From Gammaproteobacteria bacterium (GTDB taxonomy: Bacteria; Pseudomonadota; Gammaproteobacteria; Thiotrichales; Thiotrichaceae), in the NCBI GenBank assembly GCA_018822845.1, contig JAHJJD010000085.1, positions 1 to 64,000 on the forward strand: 64,000 nt of DNA. The letters run 5' to 3'. Below are positions 33,613 through 64,000 of this stretch, one piece after another; position 1 is the stretch's first letter; each line of letters starts with the position of its first letter. The notes beneath the pieces are model-generated. The model saw nothing but the letters and a program-made list of their open reading frames with translations, was not told the DNA's origin and did not search any database. Made by a program: the position numbers and the translations under genes.

Positions 33613-34953
33613 TTACCCCCGGTTAAACGCCAGCGCGACCCACCCGCCGGAAAGCAGCATTGCCCCCCCGACCAGCCAGAAGGTTACATCCAGGGCTTGC
33701 GCCCATTGTGCCAGCAAGCCCATCGCCAGCGCCCCCACCGCATAGCCGAAATCACGCCAGAAACGGTACACGCCCAGCAAAGTGCCACGTTGCGCGGGTG
33801 GGCTGACATCCGCCACCGCCGCCCCCAGCGTCGGGTACAGCATCGCCATGCCGAAACCGATCAGCCCTGCTTCCAGCGTCCACAGCCATACCGAGTGGCT
33901 CAATACCAGCAGCAACACTCCGATACCGCACAGCCACATGCCGCCGACGATCAGCGGTTTGCGCCCGAAACGGTCAGAGGCAGGGCCGGTGATGAGCTGG
34001 CTTGCGCCCCACACCAGCGCATACACACCGATGATGGAGCTGCCCTGCACCAGCGTCAGGTGTTGGGAAACGAACCACACCGGCAGGATGATCCACACCA
34101 GCGCGTCGGTAAACTTTTCCACCAATCCGGCCTGATTCAGGGCCAGCAAGCTGCGGTTTTGCCAACTGGCGTACAGGAAGGCTTGGCCTAATGAGGGGGA
34201 AGAAACCCCTCCCGGCCTCCCCTTGTCAGGGGAGGGGCGTTCTTGCACGGCAGTGGCAGATGCGTCTTGTTCCTCCCCTGACAAGGGGAGGTTAGGAGGG
34301 GTTTCTTCTAAACCGGGAGGGGTTTCTTTCACATGAGCCAACGCCCACGGACGGGTTTCCTTGACCATCAGGATCGCCAGCACCAACCCGGCGAGGATCA
34401 CCACCGAGCCAAACAGGAACAAACCCTGCCGTGCGCCATGTATGTCCACCAGCCATGCCGTCACCACCCCTGCCAGTGCTACCGCCGCATAACCGGAAAA
34501 CTCGTTCATGCCATTCACCAACCCTTTCTGGCTCAGGTGCGTCATGTCCAACTTGCTGTTCAGCGTCATCGACCAGCACAAACCCTGGTTGACGCCAAGC
34601 AAGGCGGTGGCTGCAACCACCCAGCCCCAGTTGGGCGCATACAGCAACAGCAACGGAATCGGCAACGCCGCCACCCACCCCGCCACCAGCACCCGCTTGC
34701 GCCCGAAACGGTCAGAAAACCGCCCCGCGAACAGGTTCATTACCGACTTGACCGCGCCGAAAACCACCACGAAGGTGGTGAGCAAAAAGAACTGCTGCCC
34801 ACCCAGCCCAAACTCTGTTTCCGCCAGACCGGGGACAACCGTGCGGGTCATGCCGATGGTCAAGCCAACCAGAAATACCTGTAGTAGCTGGTGGAGGATT
34901 TGCGCGAGATTGGCCTGGATGCCGTGCTGGACAGGGAGTGAGGTATTGTGCAT
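33613..34953 (-). CDS. MFS transporter with in-frame repeat insertion
   Basis: A 446-residue transporter of about twelve segments, with the MFS motifs GRFSDRFGRKRVLVAGW after segment 2 and SDRFGRKPLIVGG after segment 8. The central cytoplasmic loop between segments 6 and 7 is lengthened by about 43 residues (KETPPGLEETPPNLPLSGEE... RPSPDKGRPGGVSS) encoded by a palindromic repeat, yet the frame remains open. The ATG at 34953 is preferred. It is divergent from the DsrE gene across a perfect inverted repeat. Substrate unknown; its position suggests a sulfur or metal-related compound (inference). Confidence 0.85.
   Translation of the reverse strand: MHNTSLPVQHGIQANLAQILHQLLQVFLVGLTIGMTRTVVPGLAETEFGLGGQQFFLLTTFVVVFGAVKSVMNLFAGRFSDRFGRKRVLVAGWVAALPIPLLLLYAPNWGWVVAATALLGVNQGLCWSMTLNSKLDMTHLSQKGLVNGMNEFSGYAAVALAGVVTAWLVDIHGARQGLFLFGSVVILAGLVLAILMVKETRPWALAHVKETPPGLEETPPNLPLSGEEQDASATAVQERPSPDKGRPGGVSSPSLGQAFLYASWQNRSLLALNQAGLVEKFTDALVWIILPVWFVSQHLTLVQGSSIIGVYALVWGASQLITGPASDRFGRKPLIVGGMWLCGIGVLLLVLSHSVWLWTLEAGLIGFGMAMLYPTLGAAVADVSPPAQRGTLLGVYRFWRDFGYAVGALAMGLLAQWAQALDVTFWLVGGAMLLSGGWVALAFNRG
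34199..34327. repeat. Palindromic repeat element, in frame inside the MFS gene
   Basis: Outer ends GAAGAAACCCCTCC and GGAGGGGTTTCTTC are inverted, and inner palindromes CCTCCCCTTGTCAGGGGAGG and its counterpart sit at each end. A second copy of the right end follows at 34314-34327. The inner TCTTGTTCCTCCCC core is shared with the elements at 24258 and 59293. Confidence 0.8.
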
Positions 34954-34981
34954 GGGTATAATACTGACTTTAATCAAAAAC

Positions 34982-35001
34982 ATTCAATTGAGGAATTGAA
35001 T
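34982..35001. promoter_or_regulatory. Perfect inverted repeat, likely ArsR-type operator, between MFS and DsrE genes
   Basis: ATTCAATT (34982-34989) and AATTGAAT (34994-35001) are perfect inverted arms with a 4-base spacer. Written as ATTCAAT-N6-ATTGAAT it is the same site as at 39010-39029 upstream of the second ArsR-rhodanese gene. It lies 29 bases from the MFS ATG and 58 from the DsrE ATG, so it could control both. Confidence 0.65.
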
Positions 35002-57177: not shown

Positions 57178-57771
57178 ATGCAACTAAAACAGATCGCAAC
57201 ACTGAATGCAGGCTATCCATTCCGGGGAAAAATCCCGGAAGTGGCAGGCTCCAATATAGTCGCCGTTCAAATGAAAGATGTTTCACCAACAGAAGGAATT
57301 CATTGGAACAGTTGCGTTACCACCCAACTCTCTGGCAAACGCAACCCCGGCTGGCTGCAACCCGGAGACATTTTAGTGGCAGCACGAGGCAACCATAACT
57401 ACACGGTAGAAGTTGATGAAAGCCTTCTTCAGACTGGCTTTCAAGCCGTTGCTGCACCACACTTTTTTGTCGTCAATCTGAAATATCAGGATGTTCTGCC
57501 CGATTACCTGACATGGTTTCTAAATCAGGCTCCCTGTCAACGCTACTTCGAACAAAATGCAGAGGGCAGTCTGGCCAAGAGCATCCGCCGCAGCGTGCTG
57601 GAAAATGTCCCTATCGTTGTACCACCGCTAAGCAAACAACGCGCCATTATTCAGCTAGCCCGCACCCTCACACGGGAACAGCAACTGCTTGAACAACTAC
57701 AACGTAATGGCGATCGACTGATGAACGCCATTGCCAATGACCTACTCAACGACAAGGAAGTAGCAGCATGA
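57178..57771 (+). CDS. hsdS: Half-size type I restriction specificity subunit
   Basis: A 197-residue protein from the ATG at 57178 (the frame is open further up, to 57115). It has one target-recognition domain (LNAGYPFRGKIPEVAGSNIVAVQMKDVS, GDILVAARGN) and a conserved helix (PPLSKQRAIIQLARTLTREQQLLEQLQ). Full HsdS has two recognition domains, so this half-subunit would either dimerise or act with the full HsdS at 59535. Its stop overlaps the hsdM ATG (ATGA), giving tight coupling. Confidence 0.83.
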   Translation: MQLKQIATLNAGYPFRGKIPEVAGSNIVAVQMKDVSPTEGIHWNSCVTTQLSGKRNPGWLQPGDILVAARGNHNYTVEVDESLLQTGFQAVAAPHFFVVNLKYQDVLPDYLTWFLNQAPCQRYFEQNAEGSLAKSIRRSVLENVPIVVPPLSKQRAIIQLARTLTREQQLLEQLQRNGDRLMNAIANDLLNDKEVAA

Positions 57772-59288
57772 ACGACACCATCAGCCAAGACAGCATCAAC
57801 AAAGCCCTGTGGGCAGCCTGCGACACCTTTCGTGGCACGATCAGTGCCGATACTTACAAGGATTTCATCCTCACCATGCTGTTCCTCAAATACATCTCGG
57901 ATGTGTGGCAGGATCATTACGAACGCTATCAGGTGGAGTATGGCGATGAGCCGGAACTGATTACCGAAATGATGAAAAGCGAACGCTTTGTGTTGCCACC
58001 GATCGCCAGTTTCTATGCCCTGTACGAACGTCGCCACGAACCGGGTAACGGTGAGCGCATTGACCAAGCCTTGCACGCGATTGAGGAAGCCAACGGCACG
58101 AAACTCAAGGATGCGGGCAAAAGCGTGTTCCAGGACATTTCGTTTAACACTGACAAGCTAGGCGAGGAAAAGCAGAAAAACACCATCTTGCGCCACTTGC
58201 TGGAAGATTTTGCCAAGCCGGAACTCAACCTGAAACCCAGCCGTGTGGGGACGCTGGATGTGATTGGCAACGCCTACGAGTACATGATTAAGAACTTTGC
58301 TGCCAGCGGTGGGCAAAAGGCGGGCGAGTTTTATACCCCGCCGGAAGTGTCCGATTTGATGGCGGAGTTATTAGAACCGCAACCGGGCGACAGCATTTGT
58401 GACCCGGCGTGCGGTTCGGGGTCGTTGCTGATGAAGTGTGGGCGCAAGATCGTCGCCAACTTCGGCAGCAGGCAATACGCGCTGTACGGGCAGGAGGCGA
58501 TTGGCTCTACCTGGTCGTTGGCGAAGATGAATATGTTCCTGCATGGCGAAGACAACCACAAGATCGAATGGGGCGACACCATCCGCAACCCCAAATTGCT
58601 GGATAAAAACGGCAACCTGATGCTGTTTGACATCGTGACCGCCAACCCACCGTTTTCACTGGACAAGTGGGGGCATGACGATGCGGAAAATGACAAGTTT
58701 AGCCGTTTCCGGCGCGGCATTCCGCCCAAAACCAAGGGCGACTATGCGTTTATCCTGCACATGATCGAAACGCTGAAGCCGGATACCGGGCGCATGGGCG
58801 TGGTTGTGCCGCATGGGGTGTTGTTCCGGGGTTCATCCGAGGGGCAAATTCGTCAGAAGCTGATTGAGGAAAACTTGCTGGATGCGGTGATTGGTTTGCC
58901 GGAAAAGCTGTTTTACGGCACGGGCATTCCGGCGGCGATTCTGCTGTTCCGCAAGGATAAGCACGATACCAATGTGTTGTTCATTGATGCCAGCCGCGAG
59001 TGCAAGGCGGGCAAGAACCAGAACTTGCTGACAGCGGAGAATATCCGCAAGGTGCTGGAAACGTACCAGACTGGCAAAAGCGTGGAGAAATACGCCTTCC
59101 TCGCCAGCCTTGCCGAAATCCGTGAGAACGATTACAACCTCAATATTCCGCGCTACGTCGATACCTTTGAGGAAGAGGAAACCATTGATTTGATGGCGGT
59201 ACGGCGCGAGCGGTTGAAACTGCAACAGCAGTTGGCGGCGTTGGAAGCGGAGATGGCGGGGTATTTGGAGGAGTTGGGGTATGAATAG
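57768..59288 (+). CDS. hsdM: Type I restriction-modification methylase subunit
   Basis: A 506-residue N6-adenine methyltransferase. Motif I is DPACGSGSLL starting at D212, and the catalytic NPPF is at N293 (TANPPFSLDKWG). The N-terminal helical domain (INKALWAACDTFRG, FILTMLFLKYISDVW) is the HsdM_N pattern. It methylates the recognition site set by HsdS, protecting host DNA. It is overlapped by the half hsdS gene upstream; a palindromic repeat cluster separates it from the second hsdS. Confidence 0.95.
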   Translation: MNDTISQDSINKALWAACDTFRGTISADTYKDFILTMLFLKYISDVWQDHYERYQVEYGDEPELITEMMKSERFVLPPIASFYALYERRHEPGNGERIDQALHAIEEANGTKLKDAGKSVFQDISFNTDKLGEEKQKNTILRHLLEDFAKPELNLKPSRVGTLDVIGNAYEYMIKNFAASGGQKAGEFYTPPEVSDLMAELLEPQPGDSICDPACGSGSLLMKCGRKIVANFGSRQYALYGQEAIGSTWSLAKMNMFLHGEDNHKIEWGDTIRNPKLLDKNGNLMLFDIVTANPPFSLDKWGHDDAENDKFSRFRRGIPPKTKGDYAFILHMIETLKPDTGRMGVVVPHGVLFRGSSEGQIRQKLIEENLLDAVIGLPEKLFYGTGIPAAILLFRKDKHDTNVLFIDASRECKAGKNQNLLTAENIRKVLETYQTGKSVEKYAFLASLAEIRENDYNLNIPRYVDTFEEEETIDLMAVRRERLKLQQQLAALEAEMAGYLEELGYE

Positions 59289-59292
59289 AAGA

Positions 59293-59459
59293 GACCCCAC
59301 CCCAACCCTCCCCTTGCCAGGGGAGGGAGTAAGAGGGCTGCATTTTCTAGGTTGTGCTGGAAGAGACCCCTCCCCGACCCTCCCCTTGCCAGAGGAGGGA
59401 GTAAGAGAGTGGTGCGTTCTTGTTCCTCCCCCTGGCAAGGGGGAGGTTAGGTGGGGGTC
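59293..59459. repeat. Palindromic repeat element between hsdM and hsdS
   Basis: A left end opening GACCCCACCCCAACCCTCCC (59293-59327) pairs with an inverted right end closing GAGGTTAGGTGGGGGTC (59425-59459). A second left end lies inside at 59365-59400. Inner palindromes of the CCTTGCCAGG and CCTGGCAAGG type and the TCTTGTTCCTCCCC core identify it as the same family as at 24258 and 34199. Confidence 0.8.
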
Positions 59460-59534
59460 AATTCTGCGAAGCAGAATCTGGGCTATGCTTGAAATACGAA
59501 AAAGTGCTTACGGGCAAGCGTTGGGGGTGAAAGC

Positions 59535-60734
59535 ATGATTCCACAAGGTTGGCAATCTACAGAAATTGGCAAATTGGTAGACTTTAAGTCAGGTGGAACA
59601 CCGTCAAAAACAAAACCTGAATTTTGGGGGGGAAGTAATCCTTGGATTTCAGGCAAGGATCTTAAGCAACATTATATTTCTTCAAGTATTGATATGTTGT
59701 CTGAAGAAGGCTTTGCTGTAGTGAGTAAAGCACCAAAAGGCTCATCATTAATACTTGTTAGGGGAATGACACTTCTAAAAGATTTTCCAGTTGGGTTTGT
59801 TGAAGAGGTCGTATCATTTAATCAGGATATTAAGGCATTAATTCCGAAAAAAAGCATTGATGGTTTGTTTTTATCATTTCTTCTCGTCGGTAAAAAAGAA
59901 GAAATACGACAATTGGTTAGTACGGCTGGACATGGAACCGGACGGTTAGATACGGAAAGTATTAAATCTTTTCCTGTGGATATTCCCCCTCTTTCCGAAC
60001 AAAAGAAGATCGCCAAAATCTTCTCTACTTGGGACAAAGCCATCACCACCACCGAACAACTGCTTGCCAACAGCCAGCAGCAGAAAAAAGCCCTGATGCA
60101 GCAATTGTTGACGGGGAAGAAGCGGTTGATGGGGTTTGGGGGTGAGTGGAAATACAGTTCTATTAATGAAATAGCAACTCGGATTCAGCGTAAATCTGAT
60201 GGTAATAAGCACCCTATCTTAACAATATCTTCTCTGGGTGGTTTTGTTCGGCAAGATGAACGCTACAGTCGATATATGGCTGGAGAAAGCGTTAAAAACT
60301 ATATCCTTTTAAAAAATGGCGAGTTTGCTTATAATAAAGGAAATTCAAAAACTTATGAGTTTGGTTGTATCTTTGATCTTGAAAAATTTGAGTCAGGTCT
60401 AGTCCCTCATGTCTATGTTTGTTTCAAGTTAAAAAAAGGATTGAGCCATAGATATTTTAAGTATTTGTTTGAAGCGGATTATTTAAAACTTCAACTAGGT
60501 GCATTAGTTAATACAGGAGTGAGAAATAATGGACTCCTTAATATCAAGCCCAGTGAATTTCTAGCTACTCGTGTTCCTGTTCCTAATGTTGAGGAGCAAG
60601 AGAGAATCGCAGATATTTTGTATGCATCATCACTGGTCATAAAAAGCTTGCAGCAAAAGCTTGAGGGTTTGAAGCAGGAGAAGAAAGCACTGATGCAGCA
60701 GTTGTTGACGGGGAAACGGCGGGTGAAAGCATGA
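59535..60734 (+). CDS. hsdS: Type I restriction specificity subunit, full length
   Basis: A 399-residue HsdS with two target-recognition domains, residues 5-155 (GWQSTEIGKLVDFKSGGTPSKTKPEF) and about 205-345 (KYSSINEIATRIQRKSDGNK). Each is followed by a conserved helix region: SEQKKIAKIFSTWDKAITTTEQ and EEQERIADILYASSLVIKSLQ, both ending KKALMQQLLTGK. The two copies of this helix are encoded by a near-identical direct repeat (60084-60125 and 60680-60722), which could support recombination. AT-rich recognition domains differ from the GC-richer flanks, as usual for hsdS. Confidence 0.92.
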   Translation: MIPQGWQSTEIGKLVDFKSGGTPSKTKPEFWGGSNPWISGKDLKQHYISSSIDMLSEEGFAVVSKAPKGSSLILVRGMTLLKDFPVGFVEEVVSFNQDIKALIPKKSIDGLFLSFLLVGKKEEIRQLVSTAGHGTGRLDTESIKSFPVDIPPLSEQKKIAKIFSTWDKAITTTEQLLANSQQQKKALMQQLLTGKKRLMGFGGEWKYSSINEIATRIQRKSDGNKHPILTISSLGGFVRQDERYSRYMAGESVKNYILLKNGEFAYNKGNSKTYEFGCIFDLEKFESGLVPHVYVCFKLKKGLSHRYFKYLFEADYLKLQLGALVNTGVRNNGLLNIKPSEFLATRVPVPNVEEQERIADILYASSLVIKSLQQKLEGLKQEKKALMQQLLTGKRRVKA

Positions 60735-61330
60735 AGAAAGACCCCACCCCAACCCTCCCCTTGCCAGGGGAGGGCGCAAGAACCCCAGACTCCTCTCTTC
60801 ACTCCTCCCCCTGGCAAGGGGGAGGCCGGGAGGGGGTCTCTTCACAAGCGGTAGGCCGGGAGGGGGTCAACTCTTCACAAGAGTGGGTCAACTCCTACAC
60901 CCAACCCTCCAGCCTCAACAACCACCCCCAATACAAAGAACGTCGTCGAGAACTGCGCAGCCAACCCACGTCTGCCGAACACCGCCTATGGCAATACCTC
61001 CGCAAAAACCAGCTAGGCGTAAAATTCCGCCGCCAACACGGCATACACCACTACATCGTTGATTTCTATTGCCCAGAACTCGCCCTAGTCATTGAAGTCG
61101 ATGGCGAAATCCACACCAGCGAAGATACCCGCGAATACGACCAAGAACGAGATAACCTACTAAAAAGCTGCGGTCTACAAGTCCTGCGTTTCACCAACCA
61201 CCAAGTCCTAAACGACACCCATACAACCCTAACCCAAATCCAACAAGCATTCTCTCTTCCTCCTCCCCCTGGCAAGGGGGAGGCCGGGAGGGGGTCATCT
61301 TCCCGCAAGGATTCACCCAATGCCCAATAA
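60731..61330 (+). CDS. DUF559 endonuclease-like protein bracketed by repeats
   Basis: A 199-codon frame whose ends are repeat sequence. Residues ~65-175 are the DUF559 domain (KERRRELRSQPTSAEHRLWQ, YLRKNQLGVKFRRQHGIHHY, IVDFYCPELALVIEVDGEIH), a PD-(D/E)xK fold related to very-short-patch-repair nucleases, with D..E-x-D acidic residues visible. Upstream residues come from the element at 60740, and the tail from the half element at 61262. True translation may start later, as no ribosome binding site marks residue 60. Its ATG overlaps the hsdS stop by 4 bases and its end overlaps rhuM by 11. Confidence 0.75.
   Translation: MKKDPTPTLPLPGEGARTPDSSLHSSPWQGGGREGVSSQAVGREGVNSSQEWVNSYTQPSSLNNHPQYKERRRELRSQPTSAEHRLWQYLRKNQLGVKFRRQHGIHHYIVDFYCPELALVIEVDGEIHTSEDTREYDQERDNLLKSCGLQVLRFTNHQVLNDTHTTLTQIQQAFSLPPPPGKGEAGRGSSSRKDSPNAQ
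60740..60838. repeat. Palindromic repeat element at the start of the DUF559 frame
   Basis: Left end opening GACCCCACCCCAACCCTCCC and right end closing GCCGGGAGGGGGTC are inverted, with inner palindromes. It is the same family as at 59293. A partial right end recurs at 60853-60869. The element is read in frame as the first ~40 residues of the DUF559 frame. Confidence 0.8.
61262..61296. repeat. Half repeat element at the end of the DUF559 frame
   Basis: A right-end copy (CCTCCCCCTGGCAAGGGGG then CCGGGAGGGGGTC) without a nearby left end. Together with the left end at 60740 it encloses the DUF559 gene in about 557 bases. Confidence 0.75.
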
Positions 61331-62330
61331 CGACCTGATTCTCTATTCAACCGACGATGGCAAAGCCCAACTGGTATTGCGAGTGTTAGGCGGGCAGGTA
61401 TGGTTGACCCAATTAGAAATGGCTGAACTCTACCAAACCAGCAAACAAAACATCGGTAAGCACGTGAAAGCTGTGCTGTCAGAAGGTGAGTTGGTTGAAG
61501 AGGCAGTTGTAAACCAGCAGTTTACCACTGCCACCGATGGCAAAAAGTATCTGACCTTGCTTTATGCCCTGCCTATGGTTATCGCTGTTGGCTATCGGGT
61601 ACGCTCCAGCCGGGGTACTCAATTCCGCCAGTGGGCAACACGCACCCTCAGTGAATACCTCACCAAGGGCTTTGCGATGGATGACGAACGCCTGAAGCAA
61701 CCAAGGTGGGATTATTTCGACGAGTTGCTTGCGCGTATCCGTGACATACGCTCATCCGAGAAGCGTTTTTACCAAAAAGTCCGTGACCTGTTCACATTAG
61801 CGGAAGACTACCGTGCTGCGGAAAAAGATACCCAACTCTTGTTCGCCGAAGTGCAGAACAAATTGTTTTTTGCCGTGACCGGGCATACAGCGGCTGAATT
61901 GATTGTCACCCGTGCCGACCCCAGCCAGCCAAACATGAACCTGATGAGCTTCAAAGGCAACCGTGTACGCAAGGCTGATGTAGTCATTGCCAAAAACTAC
62001 CTGAATGCAGAAGAGCTGGATCACCTTAACCGTCTGGTCAATATGTTCTTCGAGTTCGCCGAGCTTCGTGCCAAGCAAAGACAGCATATGCAGTTGGCAG
62101 ACTGGCGGCGTTATGTGGATAATTTCATGGCATTCAACGAACAACCGCTATTGACCAACGCGGGCAAGGTTAGCCGTGACGACATGATTGAAGTAGCCCA
62201 CCAGCGTTATGAAACCTTTGACCAAAACCGCAAGCAAGCGGAAGCTTTGGCAGAAGATAAAGCCGAACTGGAAGCATTGGAAAAATTACAGGCAAAACTG
62301 CTGAAAGACCGGCAGGTAAAACCCGAATAG
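61320..62330 (+). CDS. rhuM: RhuM-family protein
   Basis: A 336-residue soluble protein. Residues 20-60 are a DNA-binding-like domain (GQVWLTQLEMAELYQTSKQNIGKHV), and GYRVRSSRGTQFRQWATRTLSEYLTKGFAMDDERLK is the hallmark of the RhuM family. RhuM genes are common in type I restriction operons; their function there is unproven. It overlaps the DUF559 frame by 11 bases and is followed after 11 bases by DUF6933. Confidence 0.87.
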   Translation: MPNNDLILYSTDDGKAQLVLRVLGGQVWLTQLEMAELYQTSKQNIGKHVKAVLSEGELVEEAVVNQQFTTATDGKKYLTLLYALPMVIAVGYRVRSSRGTQFRQWATRTLSEYLTKGFAMDDERLKQPRWDYFDELLARIRDIRSSEKRFYQKVRDLFTLAEDYRAAEKDTQLLFAEVQNKLFFAVTGHTAAELIVTRADPSQPNMNLMSFKGNRVRKADVVIAKNYLNAEELDHLNRLVNMFFEFAELRAKQRQHMQLADWRRYVDNFMAFNEQPLLTNAGKVSRDDMIEVAHQRYETFDQNRKQAEALAEDKAELEALEKLQAKLLKDRQVKPE

Positions 62331-62341
62331 GAACGACTACC

Positions 62342-63121
62342 ATGCTAATTTTTAACTGCACCAAAGCCGCCACCGAGTTTTTCACCGTCACCCGTAAAGG
62401 CGAGAAGCAATCGTTTGTGTATCCACCTGATAAGAACATCACCATTGATAGCCAACGTCTGCAAGATGCAGACGGCAACCCAGTGATGCTGTTCCAGTGG
62501 GTACTGCACGCCATCACAGTCAAACGCAAACATTGCCTGATAGCGATGGAAGTCAACACCCGTTTCAGCGTCATCCTCACCGCTATGCCCAAAGGCAATC
62601 CCGATGCGTTCATTGACCGCTTCAAACCCCGCCTGCTGGATCAATTATTCGGGTTTGCGTTGCAATCTGGCATCTTGAAGGAAGAACAGTTTGCCATGTT
62701 CATTAACGAATTCATGGCACAAACTGCCGATATTTTCTTATGCCAACGTTCCGACCGCAGCGTACAAGCTCATATCAACGATGTGGTTTCACAGTTCACC
62801 GAAACCGTGGATGCCAGCGGATACGTGCCGGATAACGAAGGCGAAATGCTGAATTTCAGTGCTTACATCAACAACCAACTGCGTAAAGTTAAACCAAGCA
62901 GGGACTACACCCACCCAGATGAGCAAATGCTGTTGTTCTGGCTACAGCAATTTTGCGGTTTCACACCAGAACAGGCGGCGAGCATCAAGCAACATTTTGC
63001 TGACCTACACCGTCGCAGTTTTAGCGCATGGAATGACATACCCGATGATGTGAAGCCGCCGCCATACACGGATAAAATTGTGATATTGGAAGACTTCAAG
63101 GCACAAAAAGGGAATAAATAA
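62342..63121 (+). CDS. DUF6933 protein embedded in the restriction operon
   Basis: A 259-residue soluble protein beginning [23 protein letters not shown]. It aligns over its length with residues 1-230 of the fusion protein at 14822, sharing [31 protein letters not shown] and a late YW/FWLQQF block. Its TAA stop overlaps the hsdR ATG by one base, so the genes are coupled. Function unknown; its place suggests a role with the restriction complex. Confidence 0.8.
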   Translation: MLIFNCTKAATEFFTVTRKGEKQSFVYPPDKNITIDSQRLQDADGNPVMLFQWVLHAITVKRKHCLIAMEVNTRFSVILTAMPKGNPDAFIDRFKPRLLDQLFGFALQSGILKEEQFAMFINEFMAQTADIFLCQRSDRSVQAHINDVVSQFTETVDASGYVPDNEGEMLNFSAYINNQLRKVKPSRDYTHPDEQMLLFWLQQFCGFTPEQAASIKQHFADLHRRSFSAWNDIPDDVKPPPYTDKIVILEDFKAQKGNK

Positions 63122-64000
63122 TGCCAGCCTTGCCACGCTTCCAAGAAGAATACAGCGCCAAACTCCCCGCATTGGCACTGTTGAGCCAATTGGGGTGGTC
63201 ATTCCTCTCCCCGCAACAGGCCGTGATTGCCCGCCACGGCCATTACGATCAGGTGGTGTTGCGCGACATCTTGCGCAGCGAATTGCAAAAACGCCGTTTT
63301 ACCTTTGCCGGTCGTGAATATGCCCTGTCGAGCCATGCGCTGGATAACCTGATTGCCGAAGTGTGCAGCCCCGCCCTCAACGAAGGCTTGCTGTCTGCCA
63401 ACGAAAAGCTCTACAACCACTTGCTGTACGGCATTTCCATCACCGAATTTGTTGATGGCAAAAAAGCCAACCCGACCATTGCCCTGATCGACTGGCACAA
63501 CCCCGCCAACAACCATTTCAGCTTTACCGAAGAATTCAGCATTACCCGCGCTAGTGGTGTCGATACGCGCCGCCCGGACATCGTGTGTTTCGTCAACGGC
63601 ATTCCGTTGGTAGTCATCGAAGCCAAACGCCCCAACGGTCATGCGAACAAAGCTCCCACCATCGACGAAGGTATTTCACAAAGCCTGCGCAACCAACGCC
63701 CCGACGAAATCCCGCACCTGTTCGCCTACAGCCAATTATTGCTCTCCATCAATGGCGCAGAAGGCCGTTACGCAACCTGCGCCACCCCCACCAAATTCTG
63801 GTCAGCATGGCGCGAGGAGGACATCAGCCCCGCTGAAATGCACGCCATCAAAAACCGCCCACTGACTGCGCTGCAAACCGAACTTCTGTTTGCCCACCAC
63901 ACTGCCCAAGATTGGGCATGGTATCAGGCATGGAGTGCTGCTGAGTTGGCAGTGACGGGGCAAGATCATTTACTGATCAGCCTGTTACAGCCACAACGCT
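63121..64000 (+). CDS. hsdR: Type I restriction endonuclease subunit, N-terminal part (cut by window edge)
   Basis: The first 293 residues of HsdR, the subunit that cuts and translocates unmethylated DNA. The N-terminal nuclease domain is complete, with the PD-(D/E)xK residues D153 in RPDIVCFVNG and E167, K169 in VVIEAKRP, and the QxxxY-like block follows. The helicase domains lie outside the window. The ATG is coupled to the DUF6933 stop (TAATG). Confidence 0.93.
   Translation, partial: MPALPRFQEEYSAKLPALALLSQLGWSFLSPQQAVIARHGHYDQVVLRDILRSELQKRRFTFAGREYALSSHALDNLIAEVCSPALNEGLLSANEKLYNHLLYGISITEFVDGKKANPTIALIDWHNPANNHFSFTEEFSITRASGVDTRRPDIVCFVNGIPLVVIEAKRPNGHANKAPTIDEGISQSLRNQRPDEIPHLFAYSQLLLSINGAEGRYATCATPTKFWSAWREEDISPAEMHAIKNRPLTALQTELLFAHHTAQDWAWYQAWSAAELAVTGQDHLLISLLQPQR

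Follow-up and report, generated by a model that had tools for sequence, protein, structure and literature searches.

Does a small nuclease gene that lies between palindromic repeats belong with those repeats to a single mobile element, or do the two merely share a site? The question is raised by a locus toward the end of the window, by which we mean the whole 64,000-nucleotide stretch of DNA that was analyzed. A DUF559 nuclease domain with the Vsr / EDxHD-type PD-(D/E)XK fold (PF04480, E 1e-33) is encoded at 60935-61249 on the plus strand. Its setting is a type I restriction-modification island on the same strand (57768-60734), in which hsdM (57768-59288) and hsdS (59535-60734) were identified by Pfam; on the 3' side of the unit, Pfam identified a RhuM-family gene, a DUF6933 gene, and the start of hsdR (61320-63999, plus strand). 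The RhuM-family and DUF6933 genes of the island (61320-63121) match the PADLOC candidate defense families PDC-S05 and PDC-S63.

A sequence-only reading had proposed that repeat ends at 60740 and 61296 enclose the nuclease gene, and both positions were confirmed. Left ends (GACCCC...GAGGG) lie at 59293, 59365, and 60740, and inverted right ends lie at 59426-59459, 60805-60838, and 61263-61296. The enclosure stands insofar as there are repeats on both sides; however, the gene actually lies between a complete short palindromic element (60735-60845; left end 60740-60774, right end 60805-60838), which had been suspected within 60740-60838, and a lone right end on the minus strand (61263-61296). The cargo-free element described at 59293-59459 is likewise present, in the hsdM/hsdS interval (59288-59465), but has three arms, two left and one right, rather than two, and is therefore a compound element. 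It is missing from the 3' end of hsdM in a relative, G013. The claim that the repeats are read as part of the protein was borne out, since an open frame of 199 aa (60731-61330, plus strand) starts on an ATGA overlap with hsdS, as it does in G013, and translates through both repeats and the DUF559 domain.

The core palindrome matched the window 10 times and was found 0 times in 100 shuffles. Genome-wide there were 127 strand-matches, the majority of the TTGTC variant; exact matches to the TTGCC form that the window's unit carries numbered 3, all within C71:59307-64198. When single strands were folded back, z was -3.8 for the element at 60735-60845 and -3.9 for part of 59288-59465, and the strongest value among the palindromes folded was -9.9. 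Our reading, to which we give a probability of roughly 0.7, is that the unit is a small mobile element made of palindromic ends and a DUF559 endonuclease, and that the gene-free repeats of about 100 bp are its non-autonomous (MITE/REP-like) relatives. That the short elements are such relatives had been suggested from the letters of the window, and the ends common to short elements and DUF559 units agree with it.

All five DUF559 genes of the source genome (G000) adjoin palindromic repeats that have the same general build and different sequences. The variant at the window's unit is GACCCCACCCCAACCCTCCCCTTGCCAGGGG, that of L003 is AAATCCCCCCTAGCCCCCCTTTTGCAAAGGGGGG, and that of L004 is ACCCCTCACCCCTAGCCCCTCTCCCTCAAGGGG. 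L001 carries CCCCCCATCCCCAACCCCTTCCCCCGCAAGGGG, and the same type lies to the right of L005, where one flank only is readable because the locus is at a contig edge; the genes of L001 and L005 fall in one DUF559 clade in the tree. Element ends were GACCCC/GGGGTC, GAAACCCC/GGGGTTTC, CACTCCGAAC/GTTCGGAGTG, and GAAGACCCTC/GAGGGTCTTC, with no GTAG tag.

Flanking repeats around DUF559 genes were then sought in 80 relatives in named genomes that span many phyla, in the genomes of 57 relatives, and in 299 genomes of the phylum, of which 108 have DUF559 (COG2852). For each gene, the 300-nt flanks on the two sides were compared with each other in direct and inverted orientation, a score of at least 25 being counted as a match. 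Left and right flanks matched at 40 of 71 loci (56%), in a sample of 80 biased toward close relatives of the query, compared to 27 of 2,114 random gapped positions on the same contigs (1.3%; MWU p 1e-25), the controls being random positions rather than matched genes. Scores at 39 of 70 loci exceeded every control position of their own contig, when 3.5 were expected, and the highest scores were above 200. In the phylum set, whose loci are biased toward high-scoring matches, 14 of 29 passed the threshold compared to 9% of cross-genome pairs. Some of the 31 of 71 loci under the two-sided threshold, and several phylum loci, have a repeat on one side only. A locus's own repeat was found again elsewhere in the approximately 12 kb examined in 11 of 42 contigs, compared to 3 of 504 tries in other contigs. 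The self-palindrome score was a poor detector in the multi-phylum set, where it gave poor separation.

These data confirm the enrichment that the sequence-only reading had suggested looking for, and with the shuffles the same-contig controls rule out chance. The same reading had named the repeat's presence beside unrelated genes as evidence against a link; such placements do occur, but as cargo-free copies, as would be expected of non-autonomous relatives. A broader form of coincidence would be that repeats gather near accessory genes generally and that DUF559 genes are simply accessory genes. The window's copies do lie in a transferred type I restriction-modification island, and cargo-free repeats adjoin many other genes. 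Nevertheless, we regard this explanation as very improbable, given the 56% against 1.3% on the same contigs, the number of loci above all controls of their contig, and the covariation of clade and repeat at unrelated positions that is described next.

Within the genus, the DUF559 tree splits into clades with one repeat type each. Repeat variant and clade also varied together at non-homologous positions: for same-clade pairs from different genomes with unrelated outer flanks, the near-flank median was 104, compared to 20 for different-clade pairs (62 and 450 pairs, respectively; permutation p 2e-4), the pairs not being independent and the permutation shuffling whole loci. When clade members were aligned, similarity stopped at the outer ends of the repeats (alpha, CACTCCGAAC...GTTCGGAGTG; beta, GAAGACCCTCACCCC...GGGGTGAGGGTCTTC); the unit therefore has defined ends.

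Repeat copy number, taken as a test of cognacy, gave a mixed outcome across variants, and its support is weak. Exact beta and gamma repeats were commoner in genomes with the cognate DUF559, the unit's own ends being left out (p 0.01 and 0.005), and the link between copy number and cognate DUF559 was significant for gamma, beta, and epsilon and marginal for alpha (p 0.09). Copies of zeta, the most abundant variant, showed no link to the zeta DUF559 (p 0.55); the source genome has zeta repeats in dozens of copies and no zeta DUF559, and G004 has epsilon repeats with no DUF559 match. Repeat copies may outlast their nuclease.

The independence of zeta copy number would also fit a passenger role for the nuclease, in which REP/MITE-like repeats owe their movement to an IS transposase or to host repair and a restriction- or Vsr-like DUF559 was simply captured between them; a Vsr-like nuclease action is possible for DUF559 proteins (PMC12907096). 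We consider this quite unlikely because gene and ends are paired by clade within one genus and in several different pairs within one genome, and because DUF559 is the only gene of the units across phyla. Moreover, among the 16 genomes searched, the Y1_Tnp domain of IS200/RAYT transposases (PF01797) was not found in G000 or G013, which have the most repeat copies, and a RAYT/IS200 transposase was accordingly rejected as the mobilizer.

Sites that lack an element in relatives were found both for DUF559 units and for cargo-free elements, as had been proposed for a check. G002 lacks the beta unit that G015 carries (L050) and has about 25-28 nt in its place. Both G002 and G012 lack the alpha unit found in G004 (L064), at a site where a gene has lost about 215 nt. 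The relatives without these units also lack a cargo-free repeat there, which favors insertion of the whole unit rather than homing into a repeat that was already there. G004 was considered as an empty site for the unit of the window and set aside as not clean, the sequence after hsdS being altogether different.

Cargo-free elements differ among the three relatives that carry the island (G000, G004, and G013). An element in hsdM is found in G013 only, where about 21 nt are replaced by 105, and one in hsdR is found in G004 and G013 and not in G000. A joined-flank search yielded further empty sites for zeta elements. One cargo-free zeta element (window 34198-34301) lies in frame in the middle of an MFS-transporter-like ORF (named by eye; 33613-34983, minus strand), and its site is empty in relatives. 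This element and another of the source genome (G000:C45:40192-40297, L020) are identical at 102 of 104 positions, including the unique middle, with unrelated flanks, which marks a recent copying event. The host of the L020 element is a LutC/LldG-like ORF (named by eye), which holds it in frame close to the start, and G014 has a shortened element at that site. A recurrent intergenic insertion site (L012 / L198 / L179), immediately downstream of a stop codon, is occupied by a zeta element in G000 and by a beta element in G013 and is empty in G005.

At the sites for which an empty relative was available, no target-site duplication was visible; very short ones could escape notice there because the relatives have diverged. 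Instead, target sequence was replaced, usually about 5-45 nt and up to approximately 215 nt. G007 has kept the L064 unit with its nuclease internally deleted; this alpha unit (L196, G007:C6:226700-228850), which also has a further IS-like insertion, is an intermediate between a unit and a gene-free repeat. In an epsilon unit of G013 (L175, 7178-11328), approximately 4.1 kb separate the DUF559 gene from the right end, and this stretch is probably a later insertion.

Taken together, these comparisons showed that repeats and gene move together and that whole units and gene-free elements insert at sites that are empty in relatives. Each check that the sequence-only reading had proposed thus gave a favorable outcome, and its suggestion is largely supported and reaches further than it had supposed. 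The comparisons also bear on another alternative, homing into repeats. On that view the palindromic repeats form a family of their own whose movement has some other cause, and the DUF559 gene encodes a homing endonuclease: the enzyme would cut cargo-free copies, and its gene would be copied into them by gene conversion, the repeats serving as homology arms. DUF559 is indeed closest to a homing endonuclease, I-Bth0305I, and many units resemble a short element that contains a gene or has one of its ends in an additional copy. However, the two DUF559 sites for which a relative could be read have no short element in that relative, so unit and ends arrived together, and homing would leave the movement of the repeats unexplained in a source genome that has no Y1 transposase. 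We therefore consider homing into repeats unlikely, though less so than a passenger role. Phage-borne homing genes were considered and rejected (only 3 of 50,697 phage records match).

Insertions into coding sequence kept the reading frame. Compared to intact relatives, cargo-free elements added a net 84 nt (hsdM), 111 nt (hsdR), 93 nt, and, for the element at 34198-34301, 93, 99, or 102 nt depending on the relative, all of them multiples of 3. Two more coding sites, compared to a relative with residual or altered sequence, gained 57 and 54 nt, also in frame. Two intergenic insertions gained a net 107 and 80 nt.

Whole DUF559 units were also found in frame, nested in some ten host protein families: LeuRS, IleRS, MetH, UvrD, HsdM (2), HsdR, type ISP, Acs, and a DUF1156 protein. 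Six cases in LeuRS were identified by Pfam and 5 more by the same junction, and all share one insertion place, the start of the editing domain. The Bacteroidota LeuRS genes with a nested DUF559 are L097, L110, L114, L115, L118, L119, L123, L125, L126, L127, and L143. In a quick tree, the DUF559 of a Flavobacteriaceae HsdR (L083) grouped among those of LeuRS, which would mean transfer between host genes. Insertions in HsdM from Desulfuromonadales (L090), Elusimicrobia (L121), and G013 (cargo-free) all lie just before an LFIDA-like motif.

The nuclease itself is under purifying selection, with a median dN/dS of 0.09-0.20 within clades, and E24, D52, E63, D65, H69, and R94 were kept among 91 DUF559 sequences. 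The conserved protein of approximately 105-115 aa is the catalytic domain only, and N-terminal extensions are translated repeat. An AF2 model (pLDDT 88) was nearest to a Neisseria DUF559 (3hrl), followed by the I-Bth0305I domain and Vsr; the match to I-Bth0305I (3r3p) had an E of 2.5e-5 by sequence profile, a Foldseek E of 1.6e-4, and a Z of 11.0. An anti-phage defense role was also considered and rejected, the PADLOC matches for DUF559 being weak and at domain level.

Because the unit has no other gene and the source genome has no Y1 transposase, DUF559 is the parsimonious mobility enzyme, and we infer that it moves both its own unit and the cargo-free relatives. The protein may recognize its cognate palindrome, which would form a long hairpin when single-stranded, and may cut the element, the target DNA, or both. 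Repair of the break would then copy the element in with loss of some target sequence, and the insertions that survive would be those in tolerant loops that preserve the frame of the host protein. A Caulobacter DUF559 protein, VsrA, has been assigned a Vsr-like mismatch-repair role, a point against this reading. It is required for the DNA-damage response in a methylase mutant, and the triggering of that response makes nuclease action in vivo credible for the family (PMC12907096).

One system that these units recall in layout is REP/RAYT (the REPtron), in which dispersed palindromes, often paired, accompany one dedicated flanked nuclease gene and gene-free copies far outnumber the gene. Both systems have several independent variants per genome, and gene variant and repeat variant were found to vary together here, as in REPtrons. 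In contrast to RAYT, a Y1 HUH transposase, the enzyme here is a DUF559 nuclease of the Vsr/EDxHD fold; the ends are without the GTAG tag, and the gene is often nested in frame inside host proteins. MITEs and their parent insertion sequences similarly combine an autonomous unit with short non-autonomous copies that have common inverted ends. However, no DDE transposase is present here, sites examined have no target-site duplication, and a stretch of target is lost.

Among relatives of the enzyme, I-Bth0305I, an EDxHD homing endonuclease, has a homologous catalytic domain with conserved acidic and His residues. It is intron-borne and has extra DNA-binding regions, whereas DUF559 here is a catalytic domain of approximately 115 aa that lies between palindromic ends at many different sites. 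In E. coli, Vsr serves in repair and has the cytosine methylase Dcm as its partner. Vsr and the Caulobacter VsrA share the fold of the window's DUF559; however, the latter has no adjoining cytosine methylase, its neighbors being hsdM (an N6 methylase), hsdS, RhuM, DUF6933, and hsdR.

The in-frame elements are comparable to the palindromic elements of Rickettsia and Wolbachia (RPE), which are about 100-150 bp long and lie in frame in conserved protein genes (PMC2229807, PMC10969869). The likeness is one of build and insertion, palindromic elements of approximately 100 bp being found here in frame in protein genes. The element described here also occurs with a nuclease gene inside, whereas no mobility gene was reported for RPE (PMC2229807, PMC10969869). 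A 2007 review left the mechanism by which such small elements move to future work (PMC2229807). No report of a link between DUF559 and repeats was found in the open literature searched, the subscription literature being outside its scope.

What is new here is a different class of enzyme in the familiar scheme of an autonomous unit with non-autonomous palindromic repeats. A broader proposal, to which we give about even odds, is that these units represent a class of mobile element, present in many phyla, in which a homing-endonuclease-like DUF559 replaces any known transposase. Such an element would build palindromic repeat families in trans. Inserted in frame, it would remain in LeuRS and other essential proteins as a nested domain that is not spliced out, and its nuclease would be the mobility enzyme that RPE-type orphan coding palindromes lack.

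For the proteins concerned, the finding means that nuclease-bearing elements have settled inside essential enzymes with the frame open throughout, and that peptides resembling PLPLPGEGVRG in annotated proteins are explained as translated mobile DNA. For the family, which ranks among the more frequent domains of unknown function, a link to cognate palindromic repeats provides a role that can be tested. DUF559 is probably the driver of a widespread kind of selfish DNA, and it is a candidate enzyme for palindromic repeats that have no transposase and, by analogy, may be one for the coding palindromes of Rickettsia.
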